Part shown: positions 1 to 64,000 of the stretch, one piece after another | How the letters are laid out: each line of letters opens with the position of its first letter | How positions within the stretch are numbered: the stretch's first letter is position 1 | Assembly (NCBI GenBank): GCA_963965975.1 | Contig: OZ014421.1 | Location: forward strand, 6,749,413 to 6,813,412 | DNA length: 64,000 nt | Source of the DNA: Xestospongia bergquistia | Lineage: Eukaryota; Porifera; Demospongiae; Haplosclerida; Petrosiidae | Direction: 5' to 3' | Translations under genes and position numbers: made by a program | The notes under the pieces: model-generated | Databases searched by the model: none | What the model was told of the DNA's origin: nothing | What the model saw: only the letters and a program-made list of their open reading frames with translations

Positions 1-3000
1 GATGTGTACATGGATCATGTAGTGCAGGCACTTGCATGTAAGTTTAAGACTACTGTTAACTATACAATTACGTTAGGAATATACTTGGTGTATGTTTGCG
101 TATTAGGGTGGCAATTAGAAAAAGTAATAGAACCTGTTATTAACCACCTGTAATATATATTGTCCTAATATATGTTGTGTACATGTATTTGCTAGTTTCT
201 GTTAACAAGATTGTAATCTTTACCTTTATCGGCGGATGACGTACATACCACGCCTGAAGTACCACTGTTATCTAGCAGTCCTGAAGCAGCTGTGATGAAA
301 TTCATACTTTAAACTGTCTCAAGAGGCCTTGATATCCAACCCTAAGCATTGTATTCCCTCCCTCCTCCCTCCCTTTTGAAACATTTGATCTATGCTCAAA
401 TGTGATTACAAAGTGAACACTTGTCTTCTTGACCTTTGTTGCACATCGATGTCCTCACTAACAGTCTTACTGTTTTTCTCCTTTTTTTAACAATGATATT
501 TACTAGCTTCTTGCTAGTCTTACATTAATCTTGTTGAGGTTGTATTTCTAACTTGTATGATTTAACACTACAAACTTTAGACAACCACCTAACAAGTATC
601 CATGAAACCTTACAAATCAGTCTCAGACTTACTATCTACACATATGATAATTTTTCCCTTCTTTATTCTCTTATTTCACAATCACTAGTCAATGTTTGGT
701 TTGCTAAGAAGCACCTACCTGTTTAGTGAAATATTTGCACATACTTGTTGTGATTATTACATCAATGCAATTGTTCATATTTTGTGCACACAATGATCTA
801 ATATGTTTAATGTATAGTGTTTGCTGTGATTATACTATACCTCTGACACAGTAATGTCATTGTGTTGTTGGGCAATAGGTCAGAGTACCCTAGTGATCAC
901 ATTTATTTTTTGAAGTATTCTTAAACAAGACAACAGAATTTGCTCTCCCATTAGATATAAATTCCATTAATAGTAATTTAATTATCTCGTCTTGTTATAT
1001 TATTTGTAGTGTATTTTTTGTTATCTAACTCTCTTTTGTTGTGCTTGATTTAAAATAGATGTGTGGGTAGTGTTATGTTGTGATCTTGGCAGTGTGTTTC
1101 GGCAAAGATGATTGAACTAACTAGATACTAATATGTCTTAATTGAAGTTATGCATTCCACAATGTGACTTAACTAGCAATAAACAATTACTATGATGTTA
1201 TTCATTTCATTTTAATTCTGTAGGTGTGATGCTAATTGGTTTGGTGAAAATTGTACTACGTTTGTATGTGACACAGCCACTCAACCTTGTCTTAATGGTG
1301 GTACTTGTGGTCAGGGTGAAGGAGATAACTTTGTCTGCAATTGTCCTGAAGGATATGAAGGAACCCTTTGTGATTGTGTTGATGGTAAGTTGAGAGAGAG
1401 AGACTAATAGATACATGTACATCAAGGGAACAAACGCTAATTGACTTGTACTTTTGTCTTAACAATTAGCAGACGTTATTTTTATTACATTAATAGTGTA
1501 TGTATTGAAAACACATTACATTCACATGTAAAATTATAAGTGATATTCATAATGACCCCCATTACAGTTATAAGCAGAGGGGGTATCGAGTTACTGCTAG
1601 TCCTCTAAACTCATGGGAAGTGTGTACTAAGATAGGAGGCCATTACCCACGAGACACTTGATCTGTGTTTAAAAAATAAAGCTGTTATTATGTTTATTAA
1701 GTCACTTTGATGTGTGACAGTGGTTTGGTTGTGCTGTACCGAGCGACAGCTGCTACTACCTCTTATTGTCACTGTTAAATATTAACAATATCGTCATCAG
1801 ACCTATGACATTAATCAGTTAATAAGCCATAACTATATAAAGAGTTGACAAAATTCTTAGTAACTAATTTTATAGGTTATATTTACTGTATTGTTATTGG
1901 GTTATGGGGTTAAGTACGTGGGATGTACCTCATTTATTTTGGTATTTGTCCTGTGTCCATATATGGAGGAACCATGAACTTTGTGTTTTCCTTTATTATT
2001 AATGTTGCCAGCTATTGAATGGGAAATCAACATATTTTGGTAAATCATATTATGACTTCACATCATTGGATGTATTGCTTGTATATAGTATAGTTTGTGT
2101 GAACAGTCTCTAAAATGTCAACAGAAGGTTTGAAAATGACACAACATTACAAATCTAAAATAAATGAATTAATTTGTCTTATTCTGATTGGTTTTCATGA
2201 CATTATAATGTAAATAACTGATATTAAGTAAATACATTAATTATAAACTGCACTCAATGCTGTCTGGATTACAAAAGTATCTCATTGTAGCTTTTTCTTG
2301 CACTTTTTCAACTCTTTCTAAATTTATGGAGTTAGTTATGACAGACTTACTATTATTACTTGCTTAATTTATATGGGAGAATATGAAGGGAAGGTGGAAA
2401 GGACAGTTATGTCTGCTCCCAGACAAATAGTGATAGTGCAGCTTTGTTGATATAGTCTAACATTGAAGTATGGTATAGTAGATTGGTGTAATATTGTGTT
2501 TTAAGATAAACTAAATGGTGTGATTGAGAGTGATAGTGGCAAGCATTCCTAGTAGTGGTGTCAAGACTGATTGTATTTAAGCTGACTTAACTTGCTATGG
2601 ATATAATATGGTGTGGTATTGTGCACAGTGTGCATAGCTTGCCTTATTTGTGTTAAGTCTATAGATTTGTTGGTATATTCTTACATTGATGGTATGTTGA
2701 TGTGGTTGGGTTTGTAGGTCATTTTGGGTGATGCTCTCTGTCTCTCTGTCTCTGTCTGTCTCTCTCTCTCTCAAAATAATCTTGTTTAATTAAACTTCTA
2801 CTAATGAACAACATTCATTTCTAACAAAACTGAAGACATCTGTACTCCTCTGACTTGTGAATATTGGGCATTGATTGTCATGAATACTTTATAAATGTAT
2901 GAATATCATTAGTCACGACACACAGATGTAAACAGCTATAAAGTATTGTCTACATATTGTGTATACATAAAGGAACCACACCCATTTTGTTAGACTGGTA

Positions 3001-6000
3001 AATGTACACACATGAATAGAGAGGGAGGGAGAGAGAGAGAGAGAGAGAGAGAGGTGGAATTTGGAGACTTATAGTCTAGTTATGGTCTAGTAATGGTGTA
3101 AATTTCTCGTTTGAGTAATTACATCCTCTCACCAATTAATTTTTTTTTTGCAGCTGGCTTTCAAAAATATTGGTTTGTAGAGAGACAATTTGCTCTAACC
3201 CAATATGGCATACTACTTAACAAATTTAGAGGGAGAATTTCACAAACACAATCATACCACCAGCTGTAAACATACTGTAAGTAGTGAAGCTGTCTAGCTA
3301 ACCCAAGGCATATCAGTGTAACAGAATGTTTGTTTCACACATACTGTCCATATTTAAAGAGTTGATTTATATATCAAAGGTTCATTATATGATGACCTGT
3401 TAGTTAGTGGTCCACATATCATTATTGTTGTCATTGACATTGATAAATACCATAACAATTACTGTAAAAGAGCTATTTCTTAGCTGTGGTGAACTACATT
3501 GTTTAGACTTCAGAGATAAAGAAACAGATGTGAAGCCACCTTAGTTTCATAGCTCTTTACTTCCTGTTCTTTATTTCTCTGGGGAGAAACCTAAATTAAA
3601 CCACATAGCTACCCACAAACAGTATTGTAGAGATTTACATGGTTATCTGAAAGAATTATTTAATTTTTCTTAGTCACACCAATATTGCATGATTTGTTTC
3701 ATATACACATACGGTTTTTAGTGTACACTTTCTCATAAAAGTTTACATCTTACTCACATACTACAATACTGTCTTTTGATCACAGCTACTCTGAGTTCTT
3801 AATCAACACAATAGAATTAGCATACCCTAACTAAACACTCCACCCACTTCCCTCTCTCTCTACTCCCCTAACCACCTGATAGTTTTATAATAATATAATA
3901 CCATAATAATATAATACCAGCTGTCCACTTAGTTGGCTCCACATTGGAATGTAAGTTCCTCTGTTCTCTAATCATCAACAAGACCTTATATAAACTTCTT
4001 GTGAAGAAGCCCTAGCTACACCTGCCAAAGACTGCCCCCTTTTTCTCCAGTCTCCTCCTATCCATGTGTCTTACCACAAAGTGGTTGTTGAAACAAAATC
4101 TCTCTGTGGATAAGTTCTTTCATTTTCCTTGATAGGAGGAAATCAGTTGGATTTGAAGCCATTTTCCCTTGCTCTGTCTGAAATAGCCTGTAAATTTTGA
4201 TGAGAGAGAGAATGAAGAGACAAGATTAACATACCTTGAATAGAATAGTGGATTGATCCTTCATTTCTTAAACAATGTGACTACTTCCCTGATCATCCAC
4301 AATTTTAATATGTGTATAAATGACACAACATTTGCAATAAATAATAATAATATACATTTATGATACTAATGATAGTTTGTGTGTGTGTGTGTGTGTATGT
4401 TTGACATTAGTTGTACTAGATATTATAATTACTATGATGTTTGTGGTATAATTTTTACTGTTTGTGCTCTAACAATACATTTGGAATTTCATTTAACATT
4501 CTGGTCTCTTGAGAAAAACATCAATCAATCAGAGAGTAAAGACATCATTGACAAAGCCTCCCATTCACTATAGTATTGACTTTAATACTGTTCTTCTTAA
4601 TGTTCTTCTTTGTTAACATTTGAAAATAGAAACATTTTCTTTCAATAATCTCTTTTGTAGGGAAATAAATAATTTCCCTGGGAAATTTTATAACATCTAT
4701 CATCTTTTGACTCAATTAGAGTCATTGTGTAATGAAAATTGTACTAAAAACTACTTTATCTGTGTTATCTTGTTGTCATGGCTTTGTAGTGCAATGATAT
4801 GTCAGCACATTAAAAGAGTACCATACAACATAGTTGTCATTAGTTGTCATTATTAGTATATCCCAAAATGGTCTCTGTTTGCGTCTAATTGTAAGAAATC
4901 TTACTGGTTCGTATGATATAATGTATCATAACTTATGTAGTTTAAAGTTCATTTAACTCCTGTAATTATAGCACATATTTCTATGGTATATTATATTATG
5001 TTTGCCTTTTTTAGGTGCTCTAGGCCAGTCCAAGAATAACCTCTGTCTTCCCAGTGATCCCCCAAAGTGTAGCGGTCATGGTACCTGTATCATCGACTCT
5101 TTCACAGACAATGAAACATGTGTGTGTGCAGCTGGATGGGGAGGAGATGATTGCTCAAAAGAAGTAAACTATTGTCTTTCTAGAGGCTGTAGTAATGGAG
5201 GCGCATGCACCTTGACGACTGACTTTTTCAACTGCAGCTGTCCTGTGGGATATAAATATGAGACTCAATGTAAAGATCCATTCTATGACTCATGTTTTTA
5301 TACACCTTGCAAAAATGGTGGCACGTGTAGTCTTCCTGTACCTCATTACAATAAAACTTATATCTGTCACTGTCCTCCAGGTTAGTAGACAATGGAAGAG
5401 AGCACTCTATAAGTTGATAAGATATAGATATAAAGTTTCAGTGAGGTTGGTTGCATGCTAGCATTACAATAATACACCTAGATAAGGATTGTTTCTATTT
5501 GTCTAATATTTCATCAAGGTGGAGTCTGCCATATTTAGCCCACCAGGTGTCCTTGCTTCTCTTAAAATTAATTTAATCACAATTTTTTTGCTTTTTCTGA
5601 GAATGCCTTTTATATAAGTATTTGTTATGTGAACAACTTTGATACTCTCCCTCTCTTCCTTCCTCCCTCCCTCTCTTTCTCCTTCTCTCTCTCTAGGTTA
5701 TAGTGGTATTAACTGTAGTGAACATTTCAGTCACTGTGATAGTAATCCATGCTCAAATGGTGGCAACTGCTCCCAATTATCTGATTTTTCTGGATACCAA
5801 TGTTCGTGTCCTCCCTACTATACTGGTCTCAATTGTCAAACTCACGTTAACCCTTGTCAAGGGAAATTGTGTTTCAATCAAGGTCTCTGTAACTCTAATT
5901 ATACAGAATATAGTGGAAAATACAACTACTCAACCAGCTGTAACTGTACTAATGGTTTCACTGGTTCTCAGTGTGAAACTGATATTGATGAATGTCTCAA

Positions 6001-7733
6001 TAGTGATCTCTGCCATAATGGAGCCACTTGTATCAATCTTTTTGGTAGTTATCTTTGCCTGTGTCAACAAGGCTTCACAGGAGAACACTGTGATATCAAT
6101 ATCAATGACTGCGACCCTAATCCTTGCCAAAATGGAGGTGCATGTCATGATGGTAACAGTTCTTATAAATGTGATTGTTCTCAGACTTCATACACTGGAC
6201 AACATTGTGAAGTTCATAAGAATGAAACTTGTTTAATTCAAGGCTGTTATTTTGGTGGGCAATGCAACAAAGATTTAGAACAACCTAACTGTATCTGTCA
6301 AACCGGTTTTACTGGCAAGTTATGCTTGTTCAAACATCAATCTTGCATGGAAAATGGTTGTACTATCAATGGAACTAGCCATTGTGACATATCAGGAACT
6401 AAATGCATATGTAGACCGGGTTATACTGGATCACTCTGTGACACTACAATCAATGAGCCCTGTGCTAGTAGTCCGTGTGCTCATAGAGCTACTTGTACTA
6501 ATAATGGGTTTGATTTTGAATGTCACTGTCCTCCCGGAATGACGGGGAAATTATGTGATGTCCCTTTATACGAAACATGCCAGGGAAGCCTCACTTGTTT
6601 GAACAATGGTATTTGTATAAGACACTTAAACTTCGAATCTTGTTTATGCAGTTCTGGATGGGGTGGTGAGGATTGCTCCTATGATATTGATGAATGCTCT
6701 CAGACACCTTGTCAAAATGGAGGAACTTGTATTGATGGTAATGGTAACTATACTTGTTCTTGTCGTGCTAATTTTACTGGGAAGCATTGCGATGTCATAC
6801 GTGGATCATGTGACTCTGTTGAGTGTCAAAATGGAGGAAGTTGTGTGCTGAATGATACCATCAACCAACCAGTTTGCATCTGTAATGATGGATACAGAGG
6901 AGCCTTCTGTGAGAATGAAGGTAATGAGAAAAGAGAATGATGGATGAATAGATCTACAGTGTTTTGCTTGTTTGTGGTTACTTTTTATTAAATAAGTTTT
7001 TTTGACCCCCACAATTGCATTATATTCATAATTATTATGAATTTAGTTATCTTTGAAGTAAGATCAAGGTTTAATTATTTGTTACTACATTAAAGAGAGT
7101 AACAATTCTTTTATTACATCATCATAATTATTGTAACCTCTATTTATTTCTCAACAGTATGTCCTTATGCAAATTGCTCCCAGCTGGCTAACAATGGTGA
7201 ATGTGATGTAAGTTCAGTTGTTACTATAGTTACTACAGTTATTATAAGTTAAGTAACAATGATGATTGTAATGTAAGTCCAGTTGTTGCTATAGTTACTA
7301 TAGTTTTATAAATGTAGTAATTGAGGAGTATAATATTATGTTATTGCAAAATTGACCAGTTATTACAAAGATAGACTCAATCTTGTTTATTTTCACATTT
7401 TGTATGTCTTATGACTGTAACGCCTTTATTTAACCCTTTGTTAACCTATTCTTTAATCAATTGAAATCTCATACAAACACATAAACAATTTCCTTTTATT
7501 TCTCTTCTGTTTGGTCTGAGTTAGTATTATGAATCACACCTAGTGACATTATTGAATTGGCAGACATACCTAACACTAGTGAATCTTCACTTGAGAATGT
7601 TCTCATTGAGGCATTCTAGTTTTGACCCTCACTATGGTAATAATGGAGGGTTTGTCAAATAGGCGCATAGCTAGTAGACATTTTAAATGTCAAAGCTTTT
7701 GTTATAGGTCTGAAAGGACAGAAGCTTAATGTT

Positions 7734-7779
<46 letters not shown>

Positions 7780-9816
7780 CAGTGGCATTGTTTCATCAAG
7801 GCTTGCAATTTTGATGGACGAAAAGACCAATGTTTCACTCATAACATCAAACCTTGGTCAAATTGTTCAGATCCCTCTTTTTGTAGACGTAACTATAACA
7901 ATGGATATTGTGATCAAAAATGTAACAATGCATTGTGTCTGTTTGATGGTAATGACTGTGATCCTCCTACAACTGAATGTCCAACAACGTAAGTAGTTTT
8001 ATACTAGTTAGATAACATTATTAATAACATTGATATATTAAACATTATTAATAACATTGATATATTAAACATTATTAATAACATTGATATATTAAACTGT
8101 TTTAATTTTATTTTTTTTCTTTTAATTCCATTAGTATTGTAGACATCTGTTCAGAAAAGGTCAATGATGGTTCCTGTGATGAGCTATGTAACACACCACA
8201 GTGTCCTATAGACACTATTGACTGTGGTGGACAACTTTATGTAAGGAGCTGTTTTCCTGCACCAGTAATGATGTATTTTATTTTCTCTTATATATAGTTA
8301 CCTGGTAGCCTTGTTTTAATACTTGTTTCACCTTACAATGTTCAATTTAATGAAGACACAATCAACGAATTTGAAATAGCCCTAGGTCGTCTCATACATG
8401 CTAGAGCTGATGTTGTACAATACTCAGAAATAACAGCTGATGAGTTAACTCGTGGAGGCTATAATACTAACATTGTGCCATTAACTAACTCTATTAATAC
8501 TACTGGTAGAATCAAGTAAGTTTTATTCTTAATATCAATATAATGATGAATTTATTATAAAAATGCTGACTTCCTTTAATAACTATTTATAGGTATTGGA
8601 AAGTTACCATACGAGTTGATATTCAGTATTGTCAGTCGGCGTGTCCAACTTCAATGCGACAGGTACAATTTTATTACAGCATTGAATAATGTCATTGAAA
8701 TGATCTTAGGTTTTGAGGACAATTGAAGCTGCTTACAGTTCTGGTCGTGTGAAAATTGCTGATTTTGGAATTGTTGATGCTGCATCACGTAAGAATTATT
8801 TTAATTTCAAATAATTATTAATTTTTAACCCATTGTCATGGTTCATTTGTTTCTCTTTTCTTACAGAGGGACCAACTACAGATGATAACTCATCATCAAA
8901 TGATAGTGGAAAGATAGCACTATACGTTTCTCTTCCTGTTGGTATTGTTCTGTTACTTATAGTAGTCGTCGTACTTGGTAAAAGGGTTCGTGATAACGGA
9001 GGAATAAAGGAAACGATTAAGAAAATCAAAGTTCGACGAACATGGCAAATACCTGGATCAACTCCAGAACCGGACTCTTCTCCCCAAACTCGAGATCCAA
9101 GTTTATCAGAGAGGCGCTCTTCATCTATGGATACTATCATTGAATCTTCCCCTCGTTCCCAAAGAAGGAGTGGCACTCACTTCACATGGAACCCCATAGA
9201 AGTGGCTGTCAGTTCAGGCTCCAATGGTGAATCTGTTGCTGTGATTGGAGAAAGAGGAAAAGACAGTCGGAAATGGACACCTCTCCATTGTGAAGCAGCT
9301 GCTCATCATGCTAGTAGCAATCTAAAGGAATTGTTCTCTACTTCGGACATCAATGCTAAGGGTCCTGGAGGTATGACACCCCTCATGATAGCCATTATAT
9401 CTGAAGACAAAGAACAGTCGTCAAAACACAAACTTCGTCCAGCAGGACCAGTCCGATCAGATTCCTCATCAGAGAGCGAACACAGTGAACACGATGCTTT
9501 CTTGATCTCCCGCAGTCCCAAACTTTTTCATCGTGGACAAGGCATGATGTTCTCTTCAGCTCACTGTCCTTCGCATTCTCGTGTGACACTCTTCATCACA
9601 CCTCAAACAGATCTCAATATACCTAATGATCGTGGTCAAACTGCTCTCCATCTTGCAGCTAAACATGGTCGTGAGGATTACGTTCGACTACTTCTCCAAG
9701 CAAAAGCAGATCCTAATCTTCAAGATATATGGGGTCAGGCTCCTATTCATGTAACAATAGGTGCAGCCACAGACAGGGCATTTGAGGTATTAGATTTAAT
9801 AATTGATATGGTTTCA

Positions 9817-9893
<77 letters not shown>

Positions 9894-11536
9894 GTATTTT
9901 ATTAGGCTTTGTTGGAACATCCAAAAACAAGTCTTGAATTGAAAAGTCTTGGCGGGATTACCCCTCTAATAATGGCTGTCAAGATGGCCAACCAGTCTAT
10001 GTTGAATCAACTGGTTGCAAAGAATGCTGACATTGCTGCTACTGATAATGAAGGTAAGAATGTTAACAAAACTCCATAATATGGAGAATGATTGTCTTCT
10101 TTTCTCCAGGTCGAACAGCAGTCCATTGGGCAGCCATGATCAACAATGTGGAAGCATTAAAGATACTTATCACCAAAGGTCCCGACAACATCAAAGATGC
10201 ACCTAATGGACGTGGTGAGACGGCTCTTTTCCTTGCTTGTCGTGAAGGTTCTGCTGCCTCTGTAAAATATTTGCTTGAAAACTATGCTAATGCAACTTTG
10301 CTGGACAGCCTAGATAAATCTCCTCTCCAGATTGCTTTTGAACGGCAACATGCAGATATTGTAGAGATGCTCCATCAAGCAAACCAAACCCCTAATCTTC
10401 CACCCCCTTTATATAATGAAAAACTCCCTCAAGTGTCCTTGGTTAATGTCCGTAATCCTATGTTTAACAGAGGTGGTAGTATTAAGTTGGAACCAGGCAT
10501 GTCTCATGGCCCTCCCACATACCCACAGTCCCTCCCTAATGGTCTTCCTCCTATGGGAATGACTTTACCACATTACCAACAAAGAGATTACTCACAAATG
10601 ACTTACACAACTGCCGGACCATCTGTTACTACAATGCCTCGTATTCCATCTATTGAAGCTGAACTTGACAGTTTAGTTTCCTTAGCTCTTTATCCTTTTT
10701 ATAATCCTTCTCAAAACCCTAGACCTTATTATACCTCTTCTCACTTTGGACCCCATACCTCATCTCCCACAGTTAGTCAGGGCCAGAATGTCCCTCTTAT
10801 GCCCAACGGAGTCAATATGATGGATGGAAATCAGACATCCCCTGGACAAAGCTCTTCAGATGGAGTTTCTCCAGGAGTCTCAATTCATCATGAGCCTATC
10901 ACTTATTCTCCTTCAAACTCTACCTCACCTATGTATCCTATATCAAATCAGTCCACGCCCACTACTGTTCACATGACAACAGCTCAAGATTTGGGTACAG
11001 GATCACAACCTCTTCAACACTTACCATATGAAGTGACCTCATCTCTACAACCTGTGTCGACTTCAATAGACCACACCCATCAACCAACACCATATAATAC
11101 TGCCTTACAATCTATTAACCATTCACAATTACCAGGTGGTCATAGCCCGCCTTTAGCTCAAACAGTCTCTCCTAATCCTCCACTCACCATTGTTCCAGCA
11201 CAGCAATCTGGTTTCTCACCACAACAGGTAGTAGCAACAGAAAATCAGAGTCCATTATCAGGCTATCACGGCTTTCCTTCTCCCCCAAAAGAAGCCGGTG
11301 AGTATCCTTTTAGTGGAGCTTGCACCTATCCTTCAGACATCATAAACAGTTTGACGCCATCTCCAGAAGATTATAGTGCACAACATCCTAACGAGGGTTC
11401 TCCCCCTCAACAACAACAACAAGCTACTATAAATGGACATTATATATATGCCATGCAGCCTCATTACGACTTCCAAACCCACATTCCTGGAATATCGGTA
11501 ACTTTTAATGCACCAAGACATGAGAGTACAGTATGA
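1..11536 (+). CDS. NOTCH: Notch receptor (5' end outside window)
   Basis: Single-pass receptor of the Delta/Notch pathway. Exons (GT-AG, phases agree): 1-37, 1224-1384, 5015-5380, 5697-6920, 7158-7207, 7783-7988, 8135-8240, 8298-8515, 8593-8662, 8710-8788, 8867-9786, 9906-10053, 10110-11536; about 1,669 residues lie in the window. Order: 15 EGF-like repeats up to about 6920, several with the DIDEC/NINDC calcium-binding form; three LNR modules (7158-8240), each with six Cys; NOD/HD region (8298-8788); membrane segment at about 8915-8980 (LPVGIVLLLIVVVVLG); ankyrin repeats from about 9265 (KWTPLHCEAA); a Pro/Ser/Gln-rich C-tail with a PPLY motif near 10405 and QQQQQ near the end. No clear furin RxRR site and no DSL domain are seen. 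The upstream start and signal peptide are missing. Exon 1 is only a fragment. Identity is certain from the domain order, which is unique to Notch. Confidence 0.96.
1385..5014 (+). other. Large Notch intron
   Basis: A 3.6-kb intron between EGF-coding exons (phase 1 at both ends). It holds short simple repeats: CT-rich at about 2739-2773, (GA)n at about 3018-3052 and (GT)n at 4379-4396. Short open frames in it have no recognisable domain. I see no exon with EGF-type cysteine spacing, but a small one could be missed. Confidence 0.6.
8019..8098. repeat. 27-bp tandem repeat, about 3 copies
   Basis: A unit of about 27 bp (ATTATTAATAACATTGATAT followed by ATTAAAC) is repeated three times in the Notch intron between two LNR-coding exons. 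Confidence 0.85.
9818..9892. repeat. (ATT)n microsatellite filling a Notch intron
   Basis: About 25 uninterrupted ATT units occupy most of the 119-bp intron (9787-9905) between two ankyrin-coding exons. Only about 30 bp at the donor side and 13 bp at the acceptor side are not repeat. Confidence 0.95.
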
Positions 11537-13326: not shown

Positions 13327-15777
13327 ATGAGTAGTTTAACACTACTATTGCTACTCAACTTAACATGTTGGCCATTGGGCCTGTTAGCCATGTCAAGTTC
13401 AGAGAAGTCACACTACAGGTAAATAAATGTTTTAAAAGTTTGAACACAACTTCCTTCTCATTATCACTTCATACATATTCTAAAAATAGACTGTTACTAT
13501 TTATAGAATATCTGTACTTCAATTTAACAATACACACATCATTCCTCTCTTAGGGAACGTGTTATTGAGATGTTCTTCCATGCTTATGACAACTATATGG
13601 TAAGACACACCCCATTTAATGCACTATTGCTATGCCTCTTCAGGAACATGCATATCCAGCTGACGAATTAATGCCATTGAGTTGTAAAGGACGAGTTCGA
13701 GGGAGGGAACCCAGTCGTGGGGACATTGATGAATGTTTAGGGAGGTATGAGGGATTTTCTTAAAATTATTATGTTTCTTTTCTTTCTCAGTTTTTCGCTT
13801 ACTCTTATTGACAGCCTTGACACTTTAGCTGTGAGTATAGACACTTTATATATGAATTATACTAAAGTTTACAAAGTTTTACTGAGTTTTTACTAGAGTA
13901 ATTTACTGGTAAAGTTTACAAAGTTTTACTGAGTTTTACTAGACTAATTTACTGGTATATGCACATTTAGATATTAGGTGCTATAGAAGAATTCAATGAA
14001 GCAATACAGCTGGTTATTAGAGATGTCAAATTTGACGCCGATCTTGTTGTGTCTGTCTTTGAGACAAACATCAGAGTCTTAGGGTAATTACCTTTAGTTA
14101 ACTATATCAATAACATTGATTATTTAATTATTATAGTGGGCTTCTCGGTGGTCATTTTGCTGCCAAATCACTTTATAATCAGGGACATCCTCTTCTTCAG
14201 TGGTACAATGATGAATTAGTTGACTTGGCTAAACAGGTTGGAGATAAACTGTTACCAGCATTTAATACCTCAACTGGAATACCATATGCTCGAGTAAATT
14301 GATATTTGTTGTACAATCATAATTCACAATTTCTTAATCAAATCACTTTATTTTAATCTTAATTTTGTCTTAACACACCTTCAAATCCTAATCCTATCTT
14401 AACACACTTTTAACATATTCTTAATGCAATCTTAACACACTTTTAACATATTCTAAATGCAATCTTAACACACTTTTAATACATAATCTTTTCAGATCAA
14501 TTTACGTCATGGTATTAATGGTACTAATGGTAGAATAACAGGAGATACTACATGTACTGCTTGTGCTGGAACAATGTTGATGGAATTTGCTGCCTTGAGT
14601 CGACTCACAGGAAATCCAGAATATGAGGTAAGTACTCTGACATAACATTATTGTCATTGATATGTTAATAATAATAACATATAGTTGAGAGCACATCATG
14701 CTATGGAAGCCATTTGGAATAAACGTCATAAAACATTTGGTCTCGTTGGTACTGTTATTAATGTACACAATGGAGAATGGACAAGAAAAGGTATTGTTTA
14801 GTTAGTAAGTGTTGTAAACTAACATCTTATTATAGATAGCGGTGTTGGTGCTGGTATTGACTCTTATTATGAGTATTGTCTCAAATCTTACATCTTACTG
14901 GGAAATAAAGTGTATCTGAAAAGGTTTACTACAGTAAGTGGAAAACTGTTTTTTAAACCAGTTCTATTTACTTGTTTGACCAGTTATATCACTTGTTTTA
15001 AGTTCAATTAATTTGTTTAACTAGTCTTAGTTTCTTCTTTTACATCTACATTATAAATAACTAGTCTAATTATTATTATTGTTGTTATTGTTGTTGTTGT
15101 TATTATTATTATTGTTGTTATTATTATTGTTGTTGTTATTATTGTTTTGGTTCATCCTAGCACTATTCTGCTGTAAAGAGATTTATATCCAATGGACCAT
15201 TTCTGTTAGATGTACACATGAACTCACCTGGAAAACCATCTCGTCACATGATGGATTCCCTGCTAGCTTTCTGGCCCGGTCTTCAGGTACATATTATCAT
15301 ATGATGATCTATATAACATTAACATTTTTAGGTTTTGTGGGGTGATGTTAACTCAGCCATCCGCACTCATAATCTCCTTTATCAAGTGATACAACAACAT
15401 AAATTCCTTCCAGAGGTAATGTAATATTTATCTCTTTTATTATTAACTTCCCTCTCATCTTCTTTAGGCCTTCTCTACTGATCAAACATTTAAACCAATA
15501 TGGCCACAGCATCCTTTGAGACCTGAATTTATAGAGAGTACTTATTTCTTATACAAAGTAATGTCAAAACAAAACCCAGTAATTGTTAATAATTGTTAAT
15601 AACTTCTATCTCTCTCTTTAGGCTACAAGTGATCCCTATTATTTAGATGTTGCTAAATCAGTTATTGATAATTTAAACAGTTATGCTAGAGTTAAATGTG
15701 GATTTGCCTCTATTGGTAATGTGAAAATGAACACCCAGGAGGATAGGTAACCATATAAAGTAAGAGTGTTTATGTGT

Positions 15778-15849
<72 letters not shown>

Positions 15850-15886
15850 TCCCTCTCCCTCTCCCTCTCCCTCCCCCTCCCTCCCT

Positions 15887-15955
<69 letters not shown>

Positions 15956-16056
15956 TCCCTCTCCCTCTCCCTCTCCCTCTCCCTCTCCCTCTCCCTCTCC
16001 CTCCCCCTCCCTCCCCCTCCCTCCCCCTCCCTCCCCCTCCCTCCCCCTCCCTCCCC

Positions 16057-16087
<31 letters not shown>

Positions 16088-42162: not shown

Positions 42163-42167
42163 GTTCA

Positions 42168-42241: not shown

Positions 42242-45333
<3,092 letters not shown>

Positions 45334-47701: not shown

Positions 47702-47754
47702 CTTGCACAGCACTTAGTACAGTAACTTGTATCGTAGTTGCTAAGTGACCACAT

Positions 47755-47767: not shown

Positions 47768-47902
47768 ACGTCAACCACACCCCAAATGAACATGTGAACA
47801 GCTCGTGTAAAATTCATGTAAATCGTACCACCCGGGGGTTAATTATTGACCTCAATAGCATCATTCTTTCGAGTCCTCTGTAATGGAAAGGATGAGGTCT
47901 TG

Positions 47903-48851: not shown

Positions 48852-50655
48852 TTAAAATACACGGTCATGAACATGACCGGCTACCACATTTGAGGGTGGT
48901 TGACCAGGTCGTGGAGCAACTACTGGTCTATGACTTCCAGTATGCATTACAAACATTGAACTGCGGAGTGCTGATAAAGTACGAGTGAGATCTGTTGGAA
49001 ACGGATCTTTCCAAAAGAAATCATGTTCCAAAGTGGCATCAGCATCAATTCTTTTTTTAGGATCCAATACCAGAAGTTTCTCAATGAGATCTAGTGCATA
49101 AGGATCTTCAACAAAATGACGGAGACGTTCTCGTACTTTCCTATTCTCTTTAGCTGGCAGTTCTAACTTTTGATAATGTTCAAGTTTATCAACTCCTGGC
49201 CATTCCTCTGGTATAATTGATCCACACAATTGACATATAAGAGTGATTTGTTTTTGTTCAGTATCTCCTTGCATTATCGGACGTCGAGTCCACATCTCAG
49301 CCATAATACATCCAGCACCCCACATATCAACTGGAGGGCCATAATTTCGTTCACCCAAGAAGAGTTCAGGAGGACGATACCACAATGTTACTACTCTGTT
49401 AGTGTAACGTTGATTTTGGCCTTTGTTTAATGCACGAGCTAGTCCAAAGTCTGCAAGCTTCAGTTCTCCAGTACGTGTCATCAAAATATTGCATGACTTC
49501 ATGTCACGATGTAGTATGTTATTACCATGTATATAAGAAAGAGCATTAAAGAGTTGTTGCATAATATTTTTGATTTCACCCAGAGAGAAATGGACTTCTT
49601 TACATTCAAGAAGACCAGCCAAATCATGTTCACAGAAATCCAATACCAAGTAAATACTTCCTTTGTCTCTATTATAAGGAGTAGCTGTAGAAAAGATGTA
49701 ATCATAACAACAATGGTGTCTTTGTGTGTAGTAAGGGTTACCTTTGGCACGACATATTTCAACCAAATTGACGATGTTTTTATGTTTTAGTAACTGCAGT
49801 ATACGTATTTCTCTCAATGCCGTCATTGGAAACTAATATTAAGGAAATTTATTAATAACATGTACATAATTATAATAACCTCAATATAGTAAGTATTAGT
49901 ACTTGTCTAGTGCCTTACAACACATTTGACAGTTAAATAGGTTAGCTCATTAAGTTATAACTAGTTATTAAATTATAACTCCATATTGCTAGCACAAACT
50001 ACTGTCATAAGCAGGATATCATTGTTAGACAATATTTCAAAATATTACACTATACTTCATCCATGTGTTGTATGCTCATTGCAAACTAGTATGTTTTCAA
50101 GCACAGGTGTATTTGTAAGTGGGAAGAGGTAGGAAACCCACAGACCACATTATGTGGTCGTGTGTACTACATAGAGTAAACATCATGACTATATTAACTC
50201 TAGTATAAGAATATTAAATCTAGTATAAGAGAATTGTCACCACATCAAGTGATATTATATAAACTGTGGATTGAGTCCTAGTAGATAGAAATATGCTTTA
50301 ATGTAACATTAACATTTACATTCCAAATTAATTATAATTTAAGGCCATTCCAGAATTACTAATACAACATGATGTTTATACTTACTCCTTCTTTCTCGTT
50401 GTCCATACATACTTTCTTTAAAGCTACAAGACGACCTGTCTTGCGATCTCGTGCCTTGAATACCTCTCTAAAAATATATCAAGATTCAATTAATTTATAG
50501 ATAATTTATATCTATTCAAATAAAAGATCTTTCCTGTTCATGACTTACCCAAATGTTCCTTGACCAACTTTTGCTAGTTTTTCATATTTAGAGACTTCTG
50601 GACAATATGGAAAATTGGCAGAACCACGAACTGGTCCAACTGAACTGCCACTCAT
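48852..50655 (-). CDS. CDK9: Cyclin-dependent kinase 9 (P-TEFb kinase)
   Basis: Phosphorylates the RNA polymerase II C-terminal domain and pause factors to release elongation. Four exons: 50655-50549, 50467-50386, 49832-49743, 49685-48852; 370 residues (human 372). Kinase motifs: glycine loop KVGQGTFGEVFKARD, VALKK lysine, the cyclin-binding helix PMTALRE (PITALRE in human), HRDMKSCNIL catalytic loop, ADFGLARAL and the T-loop RYTNRVVTLWYRPPELFLGE with the activating Thr. The C-terminal DPYALDLIEKLLVLDPKKRI and final DRVF (human ERVF) also match. An intron of 57 bp (49686-49742) can be read through in frame but would interrupt the kinase domain, so it is spliced. It is divergent from ARPC5 with 187 bp between starts. 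Confidence 0.97.
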
Positions 50656-50842: not shown

Positions 50843-51526
50843 ATGTCCAAGGCAACATTGAGTACAGAATTCAGAAAAGTAAGTTAATTGTATATGAAAA
50901 ATTTCCCCAGATTAAGAGCCTACCTATCACGTGATAGGTAGATGTCGATGAGTTAGACGAGGAGAAGTATCAGGACGAACCAGAGGGTGGACAAAATGAT
51001 GATTCAGATGCTATTGCTAAGAGGTGTGGTTTTGTCTTGTTAAATTATTATTAATCGATGCATCAAACAGAGAATCTGAAGTCAAGAGATTAACGTCAAG
51101 TGGTAAGAATTTGGATGCTTTGAAAGCAGCTCTAGCAGATCCACCATTAAGTAACAAAGATGATGATGCTAAAGTTTGTTTTGTCAACATGTACTAATTT
51201 CATATTAACAATGTTTATTTATATTAGAAACGAAACTTTGCAATTGTGTTAGATGTTCTAACACGATTTCGTCAGTCAGAAGTTGAAGAAGCTGTTAATA
51301 AACTGAGCAATGATGAAGTTGATACACTTATGAAGTACATACATCGGGGATTTGCTGAACCAACAGAGAACTCTTGTGGTATCCTACTGGTTTGGCATCA
51401 ATTTGTAAGAATTCTATGCAAGTAGACGTTATTGTGAACACAACTCTCTCTCTCTCTCTCTAGGCTGTTGCCTCAGGAGGTGTGGGCTCAATAATTCGAG
51501 TAATGACATCTAGAAAAACTGTTTAG
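50843..51526 (+). CDS. ARPC5: Arp2/3 complex subunit 5 (p16-Arc)
   Basis: Small subunit of the actin-nucleating Arp2/3 complex. Five exons: 50843-50878, 50938-51023, 51071-51173, 51228-51404, 51464-51526; 154 residues (human 151). The N-terminus MSKATLSTEFRKVDVDELDE and C-terminus GGVGSIIRVMTSRKTV are near-identical in pattern to vertebrate ARPC5. LMKYIHRGFAEPTENS and LLVWHQFAVAS complete the core. The acidic linker (EPEGGQNDDSDAI) is typical. As the single copy here it could represent the ancestor of ARPC5 and ARPC5L. Confidence 0.96.
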
Positions 51527-51901: not shown

Positions 51902-54029
<2,128 letters not shown>

Positions 54030-54299
54030 AAAAGTCACCTTTGTTAGTTGACATAGCCAATTACTCCACCCACATGAAGTAAGGGACAATTCCTTGATGA
54101 AAAGAAGTTGTAACAGTTTATTACCAAATATGGTAACATACATATCTCTTACCTTACGATGGGTAGTCGTTGGGAGCCTCTCTAAGGTCTGAACTTATTT
54201 GTGTAAACACAAGCTTAGTATACGGAGTAATTATTTCCTCGCATTATATTTCTATATGAATTTCAGAATGTTTCCGTTCACTCTCGTAAACTCATTACC

Positions 54300-54305
54300 C
54301 ACGTG
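54300..54305. promoter_or_regulatory. E-box CACGTG upstream of WDR46
   Basis: CACGTG lies 13 bp upstream of the WDR46 ATG. The same hexamer occurs in the MED22/RPL7A and PFDN6/SURF1 promoters. Confidence 0.45.
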
Positions 54306-54318
54306 TAAGTCTTAGAGT

Positions 54319-56489
54319 ATGTTGTCCACTCAACCTGAGGAAAGAAGAGCTAGAGAACTCGAGAGAGAAGTAAGAGCACTTAAAGATGGAGGAACGAGAA
54401 GAAAAGTTGCTAAATATGACAGGATAAAAAAGGAACTGTGGAATGTATGAAATATTTCAGTACATCTTAAACTAATTTATGATTTCAAATTAGGACAATG
54501 ATACTCATCTCAGGTTTAAAAAGACATTAAAAGGCAAATATGCTAAAGGTCACAAATCAGCAACTCATGCTGCTCGAGCAGAGTTAATTCATCATCAAGA
54601 AAAGCCAGGGTATACAAATGATATATACAAAATTGAATATAACTATCTCTTTAGATTGATTGAGACAGATAAAATGGAGAAGACTTATCAATTAACTCAA
54701 GAAAAAATTATAGAAGCTGCTCCATTAGCTGCTAGTCAACAGGTTGATCACATGACTATCACATGAAATATTTATATATCAATTTTGTGTAGTATTTTAA
54801 TCTCTCACTAAATGAACTGGGTCCTTATGCAATCAACTATTCCCGAAGTGGGAGGTAGATTTATTGATGTATTAATAGTACTGTATCCATTTTTAATAGG
54901 TACCTTCTTCTCGGAGGTCAAAAAGGTCACCTTGCTTCTTTTGATTGGCGCTATAAGAAGTTAGACTGTGAAGTGCAAGTTCGACAAACTACACGTGATA
55001 TTCAGTAAGAAAATAAAAAAAGATACAATTTTTATCCGACTCTTTTCTTCCTCTAGTTATTTACATACTGAGAAAATGTTTGCAGCTGCTCAGAAGAATT
55101 TTGTGTACATTTATGATAATTCTGGAACTGAGATACATTGTATGAAGAAAATGGAGTGTGTCAATAAATTGACATTCCTTCCTTACCACTTCCTTCTCGT
55201 CTCTGCTGTAAGACTCTGTTGTTAATTATTATAAAATATCTCTTTCTCCCCTAGAGTGAGTTCAGTTGTCTAAGTTATTTGGATGTCTCTATTGGACAAT
55301 TTGTTGTACGCCATTGGACTGGTCTTGGTCCTCTAAGGACACTCTGTCACAATCTTCATAATGGTGTAGTACATTTGGGACATCACAATGGAACTGTTAC
55401 ACTATGGACACCTAACATGAAGAAACCAGCTGTGAAAATGCTCTGCCATCGAGGACATGTTACTGGGATAGCTATGGATCGTGAAGGACGGTAAATTAAA
55501 TTATGATATACTTTTCAAATTTTGATTTTAATCACCAAAATGATTGATATTGAAGGAAATATCTATTTTATAGTATATCTGTCTTTATCTAGGTACATGG
55601 TTACCACTGGAATGGATGCACAAATGAAAGTATGGGACATTAGACAATACAAACCATTACATGGTTTCTATACACATCGTCCAGCATCTTCTCTAGCCAT
55701 AAGTCAACGTGGACTAGTAGCACTAGGGTATGGCACAAAATGTGAAGTAAGAAAGATGATAACTTAATTTGAAATGCCAAATGTATTTTTCTTCTGTATA
55801 GATTTGGCAAGATGTTTTCACTAATCCTGATCGACGTCCTCCTTATCTCAAATATCATCTATCAGGACAGCTGCATCAATTGCAGTTCTGTCCTTATGAA
55901 GATTGTCTAGGAATAGGACATAGCAAAGGTTTTACAAGTATTATCACACCAGGTGGGTATGTCCCTATAACTATAGCTCATTAAGTAACTTAATTAGGTG
56001 CTGGGGAGCCCAACATTGATGCACTAGAAGTTAACCCTTATCAAACTAAAAGGCAGAGACAAGAGTGGGAAGTCAAAAGTCTTTTGGAAAAGATACCAGC
56101 TGAATTGATAATGTTAGAACCCCAACAGATTGTTCAATTTCATGATTCCAAAATTGAAAAAGAAGAGACAACTGCAGTAGAAGCTCAAGTATGTACTTTT
56201 GTTAATTTTTACTTACATACTTTCTCTCTCTTATAGGCTAATAAAGCAACTTACAAGTTTAAGAAAAAAGGTCGAAGTACTCCTGCAAAGATGGCTGCAA
56301 AGAAACAACAAATGAAGGACAAGATAGCAAGGGTAAGAGGACATTTTATTTTATCGATTGTGTAATGTGTATTTAAAGGCTTTGAGACAACAAAAAGTGA
56401 GAGCGTCAAAATTAAGAGCTCAAGAGAGGGCATCTCAAAGAGACAATGAACAACAGAACATGACATCAATTTTAGATCGCTTCAAATAA
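54319..56489 (+). CDS. WDR46: WD repeat protein 46 (BING4; small-subunit ribosome biogenesis)
   Basis: Nucleolar beta-propeller scaffold of 18S rRNA processing (yeast Utp7). Twelve exons: 54319-54444, 54494-54609, 54655-54742, 54793-54854, 54900-55004, 55057-55207, 55255-55490, 55593-55746, 55802-55952, 55998-56188, 56237-56332, 56379-56489; 528 residues. Motifs: a charged N-terminus, GPYAINYSRSGRYLLLGGQK, GHLASFDWRYKKLDCEVQV, TEKMFAAAQKNFVYIYDNSG, NGVVHLGHHNGTVTLWTPN, MVTTGMDAQMKVWDIRQY and the BING4CT domain (GFTSIITPGAGEPNIDALEV then NPYQTKRQRQEWEVKSLLEK). A basic C-terminal coiled region closes the protein. The AATAAA signal overlaps the stop codon, and GOLGA2-like ends 41 bp away. Confidence 0.94.
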
Positions 56490-56530: not shown

Positions 56531-59743
<3,213 letters not shown>

Positions 59744-60354
59744 AACACAAAGCGCCTAACAAAAAGAATATATTTTTCAATATTACTTTAAAGTAATTTA
59801 TTATTCGTTTAAATAGGAATGTCACAGCAAAAGTAGTCCCACCCAAAAGTGGTCTTAATCCACTTTGATAATTGATCCCCCAGATCATTTTTGGCTGCTA
59901 AAATGATTTCAAAAGTTTAAAGTTATGTTACACCACCACTTCTTATAAAATTGATGAACAAAATTACAAATGCCTATTTTAGTATTAACTGTTATATAAA
60001 CAGTCTTAGGTTGACCCTATATAATAAGCTAATCATGGCTAAAACAAGGTAGCCATTAGCTGGAGAAAGTTATCCAAAGCTGGAGCACTCAAGGAACGAA
60101 AGGAGCTGTTATAAATTTAGATGGAAGGTAATGAAGAGTGTTCAGGTAATGATTTTTATTTCTTAAGCCTCTATAAAATTAAATAATATTATGATAAAAA
60201 TTATTATAATTAGTAGTGTTAGTTGTAGTTTGCTTTAAGTAGGACTAGTTTTATTCTTGGCTCTAGCTTTAATTATTTTAACAGTCATCGATGCTAATAA
60301 TCATATTCATAGTTGTCGTTAATGAGATTCATAAGCATACACAGTGCCGCCCCA
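59744..60354. other. Intergenic region upstream of GOLGA2-like
   Basis: AT-rich sequence with no recognisable coding or RNA feature. It presumably includes the GOLGA2-like promoter. Confidence 0.5.
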
Positions 60355-60399
60355 CAATAGCATGAAGACAAAATCGTAAGTACATATAAAAGGAAACTT

Positions 60400-60765
60400 G
60401 AACAGTCATGAGTGCCAGTGTGTTGTGGGCCAGCGTTCTGCAATGCATCAGACCTCTGAGATGGTTACCAGCATACTCTACGGAGTATCCGAAAGGCCGA
60501 CTAGGATAGGGCTGGTAGTCTCCCTTTAAACGAGACGAGGCTGGTGTATTTGTAGTTCCCGGTTCCTGAATGCGACATTCCCTAAGAGCTGGAATCCCGT
60601 ACGGCTGGTTTTAAGTTAGGGCGACGCTCCAGCCAGGATTACCTCGCGAAGACGAGGGTTACCAAGCCAGGTGGCGGTCCCAGCAATAGCAGGGAATCCT
60701 GGAGCCTAAGTGGAAGCCTGAGTGGGTGAGCGAGTAGGAATCGTTTGGGCAACACACAAGGGTTT
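60400..60765. other. GC-rich, hairpin-rich island of unknown nature
   Basis: About 365 bp with clearly higher GC than its surroundings. Visible stems: TACCAGC (60466-60472) with GCTGGTA (60511-60517) enclosing ATACTC-TACG-GAGTAT (60473-60488); GTCTC/GAGAC (60518-60536); ATTCC/GGAAT (about 60577-60595); GGCTGG (60603-60608) with CCAGCC (60629-60634); CCTCG-CGAAGA-CGAGG (60642-60657). Open frames are short in all directions. An A/T-rich tail of TTTTATTTTATTTTATTT follows at 60762. I could not match it to 5S, SRP, RNase P/MRP, U snRNA or tRNA. It may be a non-coding RNA or the structured end of a retroelement. Confidence 0.4.
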
Positions 60766-61550
60766 TATTTTATTTTATTTTATAAATTAGATTTATTTAA
60801 AATTACTGGGAAACCTGTTTTTTTTTTTTATTTTATAAGTTAGATTTATCTAAAACTACTAGGAAACTACCTGTCAGTAGAACTGGCCCTCAGACTGTCA
60901 TAGAGAACATTTCACGGATTTGCTTAAGTTGTATGGTATATACAAAATATGCAATTGGTATTATGAACATAAAACTGGTTTAACCAGTTTGATTTGTTTA
61001 TTAGATGTATTCAAATCTTGAGATTGGTTACCTCATCACGAATTTGTTTAATCCTGTTATATGACAACATCAAGTGAAGAAATCATTGACAATTATTGGA
61101 TTTATAAAAGTTTGACACCCAAGCAACAACAACAACAATAATAATAAGAGAGGGAAAAGAGTTAATTAATGAGCAATTAAAATAATATAGATATTGTCTT
61201 AAGAGCGACATGGGACTTAGCTATATAAATATGTTTACAAGATTTAAGATTACAAACATCACAAAAGAGCAATTGTATCATTACCGCTATATAAAAATTA
61301 TAATTATTTATAACTACACTTATATACTTAGTGAATCACTAATAATAAATAGCTTTCCTACATGATATAACCTGGTTTAGCAAAAAATGGAGACAGTACC
61401 TTTAATGATATCCTTACAACAACACATCACACTTATCCAGTTCCTTTTAGTAATGTTTGGTTTATAATTGCTTATAAAAGAAGTTAAAAGAAGAAAATAT
61501 GCATCAAAACAATTCAAACACACTCTAGATCCGTAAGATGTTAATGTGAT
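60766..61550. other. Intergenic AT-rich region with a two-copy repeat
   Basis: From about 60763 to 60875 a segment of about 60 bp (TTTTATAARTTAGATTTATY, TAAAAYTACTRGGAAAC) occurs twice, directly after the GC-rich island. The rest is AT-rich with no recognised feature. Confidence 0.55.
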
Positions 61551-61554
61551 TAAT

Positions 61555-61750
61555 TTCTTCTTCTTTTCCAATTTGACACCAAAATATGACACTTACATAC
61601 CATCTCTTGAACATCTTTTACCATCTTTGGCCACATAAAACGCTCGATAATTCAGTTTAGTGTACAATTGATTTTGGATCCATGTGGCATACACTCAGAA
61701 TTTTTACTCTATCCTCCAAATTAGACACATATTTTACTTCTACAACCTGA
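61555..61750 (-). pseudogene. Decayed integrase zinc-binding (H2C2) fragment
   Basis: Minus-strand frames from about 61743 down encode VEVKYVSNLEDRVKILSVCH then MDPKS. In another frame (61645 down) they encode ERFMWPKMVKDVQEMVCKCH. Together these resemble the HHCC zinc-binding domain of Ty3/gypsy- or Ginger-type integrases (CHxDP...RFxWPxMxxDV...CxxC). Stops and a frameshift separate the two halves and no catalytic core follows, so it is a dead fragment. Confidence 0.5.
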
Positions 61751-62067: not shown

Positions 62068-63545
62068 ATGAATTTGAGAACACTCAGAGCTACAACTCTC
62101 AACTTATTACTACGATATTGTAAAAACTATTTTTGCAGACAACAGTCTTACTTTCTTCCTAGTATGGCATCAGGAAAGTTAGACACACCTCATTTCCATG
62201 CCATTCTAACTCCAGGTAAGCCTTGGACAGTAAAGTGGTTAATATATCATTGTATTCAGATCTCCTTAGGTTGGGTCAACTTTTTAAATCAGAAGGTTAC
62301 TCACTAAGATTAGTTGGGGGAGTAGTTCGAGACTTGTTGCTAGGATGTAAACCCAAAGATGTTGACCTAGCAACGGAATGTACTCCCGATGAAATGATTC
62401 GTCTTTTTGAACGGGAAGGTATACGTCATATCCCTACTGGATTACAACATGGTACCATTACCGCCCACATAAACAATGTCGATTATGAGATAACTACATT
62501 ACGAGTAGATCATTTGACTGATGGACGTCATGCTGTAGTTGAATTTACATCAGATTGGAAGACAGATGCAGAGAGACGTGATCTGACTATTAATGCTATG
62601 AGTTTAAATTTTGATGGAGTTTTATATGATTATTTTGATGGACAACGTCATTTAGCTGAACATAAAATATGTTTTGTTGGTGACTCTCGTTCAAGAATTA
62701 AAGAGGATTACCTTCGAATTCTACGCTATTTCAGGTAAGGTGCATTTGTGTTTAGTTACTAAAAATAACTTGATGTTTGATGACATCATAGTCACTAACT
62801 ATATTTAGGTTTTATGGTCGTATTGCTTTGTCTCCTGATGGACATGATGCAGACACTCTTGCTGCTATTAAAGAAACAGCTGAAGGACTTTCAGGGATAT
62901 CTGTTGAAAGAGTTTGGATGGAAATGAAGAGGATTCTTGTAGGAAGACATACCCCACATCTTATTAATTTGATGTACCAAGTGGGTGTGGCTCATTATAT
63001 TAGTAAGTCAAAAAGTTTTAAATAGCATATAGATATATATTTATTTCTCTCTAGATCTTCCTAGTGATGGTAATTTACAAGAACTTACTAACGTTTGGAA
63101 GAGAATGCAAGGAAGATATCACTTACAACCAGTAAGTGTTCTGGTTAGTTTAACACATACATCACAGGAAGCTGAGGAACTTGGACGAAGATGGAAACTT
63201 TCAAATACAGAGAGAAAATTAGGAATATTTGTAGCTGAACAACGAGAGAAAGGATACCAAGACACACCTCTGAAATATTATCAAGATTTATTGGTAGATG
63301 GAGTATCACTTGAGCACATTACTGAGGTATTACGTTATTGTGGACGTGTTGAACAAGCTTCAGAGCTTGAAAGATGGACTGTACCCATCTTTCCATTAAA
63401 TGGTAAACATTTAGCAGCTGTAGGTCTGACAGCTGGTCCACAAATGGGTAGAGTATTAAAAATGGCAAAGGAAAAATGGAAAGATAGTTTCTATACTCTT
63501 AACAAAGAAGAATTGTTAGAAATGACAGTTAAAAATTGTAGATAA
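62068..63545 (+). CDS. TRNT1: CCA tRNA nucleotidyltransferase 1
   Basis: Adds and repairs the CCA end of tRNAs in mitochondria and cytosol/nucleus. Four exons: 62068-62215, 62260-62734, 62809-63003, 63056-63545; 435 residues (human 434). Class II nucleotidyltransferase motifs: LRLVGGVVRDLLLG followed by KDVDLATE (metal-binding DxD), TLRVDHLTDGRHAVVEFTSD, RRDLTINAMS and the RIKEDYLRILRYFRFYGRIA segment. The first 26 residues (MNLRTLRATTLNLLLRYCKN...) look like a mitochondrial presequence. An in-frame internal ATG at 62164 (MASGKLDTPHF) would give a cytosolic/nuclear form, a dual-targeting layout known for this enzyme. The C-terminal body domain is complete. Confidence 0.95.
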
Positions 63546-63683: not shown

Positions 63684-63991
63684 TTATGACAGCTGCTGAG
63701 ACTTGCCCAATTCCTTCAAAGCCCATTGTTTATTTTCAATGTCCAATTTTATTTGATGATACTCTTGACTTAGTGAAACAAAGTTAGCACCCAAGGTCTG
63801 ATAATGATCAAGCGCTTGGCGAGTTTCTATCAGCTGTGACTCCAGCTGGTGTTGGGTAGCATCTAAATAAGCTCTATGAATGGGCAGAGACTAAAAGAAC
63901 AATTCTGTGAATTATTATTTACCTGATATGTTTAAGAGCCCCCACTTTATCTGGCGAATAAGTTGCCACCATTAACTGGAGTTTAATAACA
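63684..63991 (-). CDS. HAUS4: HAUS4-like (augmin subunit) C-terminal end, truncated by window
   Basis: Only the last two exons are present: 63991-63923 and 63873-63684. They encode a helical, coiled-coil-like segment: VIKLQLMVATYSPDKVGALK, HIRAYLDATQHQLESQLIET, then YQTLGANFVSLSQEYHQIK and a conserved-looking ENKQWALKELGKS end. The pattern 'LG..F..L..EY......ENK.WAL..L' resembles the end of HAUS augmin-like complex subunit 4, which helps nucleate spindle microtubules. The match is by memory of the family end only. The 5' part lies beyond the right edge. TRNT1 ends 138 bp away, tail to tail. Confidence 0.5.
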
Positions 63992-64000
63992 CTAATATAG

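Follow-up and report, generated by a model that had tools for sequence, protein, structure and literature searches.

Does a stretch of sponge chromosome still hold together genes that in humans are divided among the four regions of the major histocompatibility complex (MHC) paralogon and, if so, at what scale has that linkage survived? We addressed this question with 64,000 nucleotides of the demosponge Xestospongia bergquistia (hereafter, the window), positions 6,749,413-6,813,412 of contig OZ014421.1 (C11), which carry Notch, the Surfeit genes SURF1, MED22 and RPL7A, WDR46, PFDN6, CDK9 and GOLGA2, among others. The assembly comprises 21 contigs with 146,460,797 bases in all, of which C11 accounts for 7,250,912, or 4.95%. 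With a probability of roughly 0.88, we conclude that the window belongs to a demosponge chromosome descended from the same linkage group that gave rise to the MHC paralogon, now found on human chromosomes 1, 6, 9 and 19. At the scale of 64 kb, it most likely reflects known ancestral macrosynteny along the chromosome and is no special block.

The first line of evidence is gene content. Genes were called with a splice-aware finder self-trained on the window plus 100 kb on either side (264 kb), which placed ~24 genes in the window with a median intron of 57 bases; a PLPP6-like single-exon gene that it missed was added from an open frame. An ankyrin gene with no assigned orthologue and one of two stomatin copies were dropped before counting. 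Twelve of the 21 scored window loci have human counterparts in the four regions (scored as 9q32-34, 6p21-22, 1q21-25/1p12-13 and 19p13), with human map positions, and the share of human genes lying in these regions, taken from general background. Binomial P values of 3.5e-12, 3.5e-7, 1e-5 and 1.9e-4 result from assumed backgrounds of 4, 11, 15 and 20%, respectively. The first-pass annotation of the window had listed 13 genes in proposing such an excess; all 13 are present (by the gene finder plus the one open frame), and the excess itself holds up.

Could the count be a coincidence, enlarged by selective listing of matching genes and by multi-copy human families? Nine of the 21 loci have their human counterpart elsewhere (AFMID, DnaJ, LRRIQ3, CCDC15, TBC1D23, PLPP6, WDR13, TRNT1 and HAUS4), eight of them, all but PLPP6, absent from the first-pass list, and the several human copies of NOTCH, STOM and ARPC5 raise the odds of a match. 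However, one-to-one genes alone still give 9/18 (P 4.5e-5 at 11%, 0.0043 at 20%), or 7/16 with the SURF trio taken as one (P 9e-4 at 11%, 0.027 at 20%). The flanks, unseen by the earlier reader, score 15 of 28 (P 3.8e-8 at 11%, 8.4e-5 at 20%), and paralogon markers, placed below, share the window's contig. Chance alone is rejected on the window, flank and marker P values, and we regard coincidence as having a negligible probability.

The flank positives, for which families were tested and the exact human orthologue was often assigned by eye, comprise SET, POLE3-like, CSNK2B, a Sec1/STXBP gene, PTPA, EXOSC2, PPP1R11, DDX39B (best match in a PDB sequence search), NDOR1, BBLN/UPF0184, a RalGDS/RGL gene, PRDX6, SLC31-type copper transporters, FKBP15-like and FPGS-like. 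The 13 negatives are UBE2F-like, DNTTIP2 (Fcf2), COG7, kinesin, HLCS-like (BPL_N), BMS1, CFAP44-like, glomulin-like, RPL28, TYW3, CFAP20, AP5B1-like and KIFBP-like; the names CFAP44, AP5B1 and KIFBP are provisional, the scanned 170-residue pieces having given no Pfam match, and those of HLCS and kinesin are partly so. This strict count leaves out IER and FAM78 (no Pfam match) as well as EVI5L and PRSS16/DPP7 (broad family only); with these provisional positives it becomes 19/32. Also dropped were unassigned genes (START, DED/caspase-like, WD40, golgin-like, TRAF-like, DHHC, FASTK-like and a taperin/phostensin-like piece), models that were unknown or low-scoring, and genes presumably absent from human (threonine aldolase-like and epimerase-like). 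Since the flanks carry the same paralogon pattern, that pattern is not peculiar to the window. Separately, TRAF-like (MATH) genes lie to the right of the window (one tested, two by eye); on its left are two DED/caspase-like genes, recognized by eye.

The second line of evidence comes from paralogon markers elsewhere in the genome, placed by exon-wise domain-family searches of the whole X. bergquistia genome. Of the six marker types that the first-pass annotation put forward for such a test, BRD/BET, PSMB7 and fibrillar collagens are placed on C11, and the sole nuclear-receptor match lies on C14. For BET, the best match is on C11 at 5.16 Mb, and a weaker one on C10 falls in a locus that by eye encodes a YEATS-type protein. 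The proteasome family gave 23 exon matches on eight contigs; the C11 genes are PSMB7 (293 bits vs 248 for PSMB10, PDB sequence search) and a PSMB1-like gene recognized by eye, and among these matches psmb5 and psmb6 were not located. A five-unit polyubiquitin gene, also recognized by eye, lies ~460 bp upstream of the PSMB1-like gene on the same strand, at ~4.887 Mb of C11. Eight of 11 COLFI exon matches are on C11, with clustered fibrillar-collagen C-propeptide exons at 4,334,409-4,455,974. SURF4 (three exon matches, ~1.2 Mb from SURF1), hamartin/TSC1 (four exon matches at 35-38 kb, the far end of the contig) and BAT2_N/PRRC2 (a single match) were each matched at one place genome-wide, in every case on C11. 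Notch, an MHC framework gene, sits in the window itself. In total, 6/7 informative markers are on C11 (P ~1e-7 if independent); without SURF4, which is not independent of the window's SURF genes, the figure is 5/6 (P 1.7e-6), and for the markers named in the first-pass annotation it is 3/4 informative (P = 4.7e-4).

Several observations weigh against this reading. Of the COLFI matches, two fall on C2 and one, a weak match, on C15; the nuclear-receptor ligand domain gave two overlapping matches, on C14 only, which may come from a gene other than RXR; and the second proteasome gene on C11, the PSMB1-like one, is not a paralogon gene. ABC_membrane matches are scattered over many contigs (14/85 on C11) and are uninformative. 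PBC/PBX had no match genome-wide in an exon-wise search that also missed the NOD family, which had no genome-wide match although Notch sits in the window; an empty family answer is therefore no evidence of absence. The choice of SURF4, TSC1 and PRRC2 as markers followed the window result, and that of PSMB7 followed inspection of the proteasome matches. With SURF4 ~1.2 Mb from SURF1, the full Surfeit cluster has not been kept. Many flank names combine a domain match with provisional assignment and are putative one-to-one orthologies, and the human locations, like the background share (set at 4-20%), are assumed values, not the output of a tool. For the window alone, counting the SURF trio as one against a 20% background yields P = 0.027. 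Control windows totaling 80 kb of C14, C2 and C8 gave one recognized gene, too little for a control: 30 kb of C14 had 0 gene calls, 30 kb of C2 had six with a human orthologue recognized in none, and 20 kb of C8 had four, one of them recognized as a proteasome alpha subunit. The C14 interval (3,000,001-3,030,000) is thus 30 kb without any gene call, unlike the gene-dense C11 region.

The genes of the window are as follows, with the best-supported name and the human location of the counterpart.

4972-11536, plus strand: Notch, with EGF repeats, three LNR (Pfam 78 bits), a transmembrane segment and ankyrin repeats; human NOTCH1-4 at 9q34, 1p12, 19p13 and 6p21.
13390-20265, plus strand: EDEM3, with GH47 (386 bits) and a PA domain; human 1q25.3.
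21790-22593, minus strand: ankyrin-repeat gene (Ank, Ank_2), outside the count.
22743-27442, plus strand: alpha/beta hydrolase in two model fragments, with Abhydrolase_3 in the second, which we take to be AFMID-like (human 17q25, outside the paralogon).
27930-28548, minus strand: PFDN6 (Prefoldin_2, 93 bits), head-to-head with SURF1; human 6p21.32.
28647-30851, plus strand: SURF1 (Pfam SURF1, 129 bits); human 9q34.
30929-31431, minus strand: MED22 (SURF5; Med22, 85 bits), tail-to-tail with SURF1 and head-to-head with RPL7A.
31528-32833, plus strand: RPL7A (SURF3), named by eye from Ribosomal_L7Ae (84 bits), a broad family.
32983-34246 and 34656-36228, minus strand: two tandem stomatin-family genes (Band_7, 127 bits, second copy scanned), counted once; human STOM at 9q33, NPHS2 at 1q25.
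36250-40706, plus strand: a DnaJ gene and what we take to be an LRRIQ3-like gene (human 1p31), merged by the gene finder (DnaJ, LRR, IQ); counted outside.
40737-41925, minus strand: CCDC15-like gene, a provisional name with no Pfam match; counted outside.
42083-45333, plus strand: TBC1D23 (TBC1D23_C, 99 bits); human 3q12, counted outside.
45413-47701, minus strand: ODAD3 (CCDC151), named by homologue search; human 19p13.2.
48063-48680, plus strand: PLPP6-like PAP2 phosphatase in a single open frame (PAP2, 77 bits; 56% to an Amphimedon PLPP6-like protein); human PLPP6 at 9p24, counted outside.
48852-50655, minus strand: CDK9 (536 bits vs 330 for CDK12, PDB sequence search); human 9q34.11.
50843-51526, plus strand: ARPC5/ARPC5L (P16-Arc, 135 bits; ARPC5L 119 vs ARPC5 117 bits, PDB sequence search); human ARPC5 at 1q25.3, ARPC5L at 9q33.3.
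51902-53392, minus strand: WD40 gene, presumably WDR13-like (human Xp11); counted outside.
53429-56489, plus strand: WDR46 (BING4CT, 118 bits); human 6p21.32.
56531-61636, minus strand: GOLGA2 (PF15070, the GOLGA2L5 family, 168 bits, C-terminal 392 residues scanned); human 9q34.11.
62068-63545, plus strand: PolyA_pol gene (113 bits), which we assume to be TRNT1 (human 3p26); counted outside.
63684-64000, minus strand: HAUS4 (98 bits), the 3' part only of a gene that runs on to 64941; human 14q11, counted outside.

Names were drawn from Pfam, from PDB sequence searches (CDK9, ARPC5) and from homologue searches (ODAD3, PLPP6, EDEM3); those of AFMID, WDR13, LRRIQ3, CCDC15, TRNT1 and RPL7A exceed the domain evidence and were assigned by eye. 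The Notch gene model begins at 5147, and an open frame at 4972-5385 holds an exon bearing EGF and signal-peptide-like residues; the Pfam NOD domain was not detected in Notch, although LNR, EGF and ankyrin repeats are present. For EDEM3, the majority of named proteins among 120 listed homologues bear that name. The best named homologue of ODAD3 is a CCDC151-like protein of Amphimedon queenslandica (73% identity), followed by one from Halichondria panicea (59% over 78%), and many listed proteins are named ODAD3. The two tandem stomatin copies contradict the description of this gene as single-copy in the first-pass annotation. Tandem arrays at 16,895-17,735 and 19,002-19,309 (a 71-bp unit x7.2 with 99% matches, a 124-bp unit x3.0 with 88% and a 100-bp unit x3.1 with 99%) fall within the modeled extent of EDEM3, probably in its introns.

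At what scale, then, has linkage been kept? Conservation of immediate neighbors with mammals is small, and one set was found, SURF1-MED22-RPL7A. By modeled coding ends, the plus-strand SURF1 and the minus-strand MED22 end 78 bp apart, and the starts of MED22 and the plus-strand RPL7A are separated by 97 bp. In mouse, the end of RPL7A (Surf3) lies 70 bp from that of Surf1, and Surf5 (MED22) is divergent from Surf3 (PMC9929512). The mouse Surfeit locus and the window therefore share the adjacency of the three genes, the divergence of MED22 and RPL7A, and a convergent 3' neighbor of SURF1 at 70-80 bp; they differ in that the MED22/RPL7A unit is inverted, such that SURF1 meets MED22 in the sponge and RPL7A in mouse. 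A shared promoter would be a likely reason for the retention of the MED22/RPL7A pair. The wider SURF1-SURF6 cluster is not tight in the sponge, where SURF4 is distant; SURF2 and SURF6 were not searched for.

These neighbors raise the alternative that selection, through shared regulation of housekeeping and stress genes, has kept a block at gene-neighbor scale, beyond chromosome linkage. The adjacency of the trio in both sponge and mouse fits this proposal, as does the very tight, strand-alternating packing: in the run of 23 gene calls that starts with Notch and ends with BMS1 (5,147 to 69,217), 20 of 22 neighboring pairs switch strand (56/70 across the 264 kb), and nine of ten divergent gaps are under 500 bp, spanning 22-432 bp, the tenth being long because a low-scoring first AFMID fragment was omitted. 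Short divergent gaps combined with strand alternation suggest that many genes may share bidirectional promoters. Nevertheless, head-to-head packing is general in Amphimedon, where 11,379 genes lie head-to-head at distances within 1 kb (PMC4773876). In that sponge, a contig of 207,355 bases is given for the ODAD3-like as well as the PLPP6-like protein, and this neighbor pair (window 45,413-48,680) may have been kept between both sponges; EDEM3, however, is listed with another contig, of 404,746 bases, and the block is accordingly not seen on one Amphimedon contig. WDR46 and PFDN6, neighbors in human, are 25 kb apart in the sponge, the paralogon share of the flanks equals that of the window, and the C11 markers range in position from 35 kb to 5.6 Mb. 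We consider selection on a neighbor-scale block unlikely.

An isolated preserved block was rejected on account of the same pattern in the flanks and at the distant markers. With the flank signal equal and TSC1 at 35 kb, the window looks like a sample of its chromosome and not like a preserved island. Of the earlier proposal that a pre-duplication linkage group survives here at gene-neighbor scale, the linkage is supported by the 12/21 loci and the enrichment of markers on C11, whereas the scale is not, as the flanks are equally strong. A bolder extension is that this end of C11 is a denser, regulation-bound core, in which MED22/RPL7A beside SURF1 is a promoter unit kept from sponges to mammals, and that some MHC-paralogon neighborhoods are thus relics of early animals instead of vertebrate assemblies; we find this doubtful.

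Linkage to an MHC paralogon also invites a functional interpretation, namely that the region was an early immune or stress gene complex. PSMB7 on C11, the polyubiquitin gene beside the PSMB1-like gene (the latter two by eye), and the DED/caspase-like and TRAF-like flank genes (one TRAF-like gene tested, the rest by eye) lean in that direction. Yet the window genes serve ciliary, Golgi, ribosome, transcription and signaling roles, and no MHC, TAP, immunoproteasome or C3-like gene was recognized among the window gene calls, by annotation only and with no dedicated search. This agrees with the first-pass annotation, which had likewise placed no MHC or antigen-processing gene in the window, and leaves its term "proto-MHC" as a positional label only. 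A functional proto-MHC was rejected on the same ground, antigen-processing genes being unrecognized in the window, and we judge it quite improbable.

We thus return to descent from a shared linkage group. From the observed gene content and the contig placement of the markers, we infer one ancestral chromosome, which would have been duplicated twice in vertebrates to yield the MHC paralogon. Rearrangement within the chromosome would have shuffled gene order while exchange between chromosomes was rare, such that the genes stayed linked; shuffling within one chromosome would explain why counterparts of 9q33-34, 6p21, 1q25 and 19p13 are intermixed in the window. Loci with counterparts outside the four regions would be later departures in the vertebrate line or arrivals in the sponge line. 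Where neighbors are conserved, a shared promoter would be a likely constraint, as for MED22 and RPL7A, whose divergent orientation beside SURF1 is observed.

These findings offer a gene-by-gene view, from an animal that is neither bilaterian nor cnidarian, of the MHC-paralogon linkage group as it stood before duplication. They suggest an ancient chromosome held together since early animals, in which housekeeping and signaling genes now split over four human regions remain linked in a sponge. They further suggest that the non-immune MHC framework (Notch, BRD, RGL, WDR46, PFDN6, CSNK2B, DDX39B and PPP1R11) was already on one linkage group with 9q34-type genes at the sponge-vertebrate split, and they are silent on the origin of the MHC genes themselves. 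In the retained SURF1-MED22-RPL7A trio, a promoter may have kept one gene pair together from early animals onward, a proposal specific enough to be tested.

Among the titles and abstract openings found in the open-licence literature, none described MHC-paralogon linkage in a sponge; the principle is already published, and the sponge instance may not be. Suurvali 2014 reportedly treats, by its title, the proto-MHC of placozoans, with MHC-region relatives in an early-branching animal; the C11 case comes from a sponge instead. A wider proto-MHC chromosome joining the natural killer and leukocyte-receptor complexes has been called an artefact (PMC8302630), and this wider claim is not made for the sponge contig. 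The genes notch, pbx and rxr are described as MHC framework genes (PMC10751288).

Two further published systems stand among those closest to ours. When the vertebrate karyotype before duplication was reconstructed, all four human MHC regions traced to one ancestor, pre-1R chromosome 9 (PMC6193309), and sponge chromosomes bear bilaterian-cnidarian-sponge ancestral linkage groups (PMC10232365). C11 resembles both in that relatives of the same gene set are linked on one chromosome, and differs in being a single demosponge contig followed gene by gene. In Ephydatia muelleri, macrosynteny with Trichoplax, Nematostella and amphioxus occurs without collinearity, and its sponge-chordate component was called consistent with moves within chromosomes exceeding those between them (PMC7385117). 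Both sponges therefore show sponge-chordate linkage without gene order; the main text of PMC7385117 contains MHC 0 times, whereas the C11 group is tied to the MHC paralogon. The window is in keeping with these published results taken together. In this context, the C11 linkage is a clear new example of a known principle.

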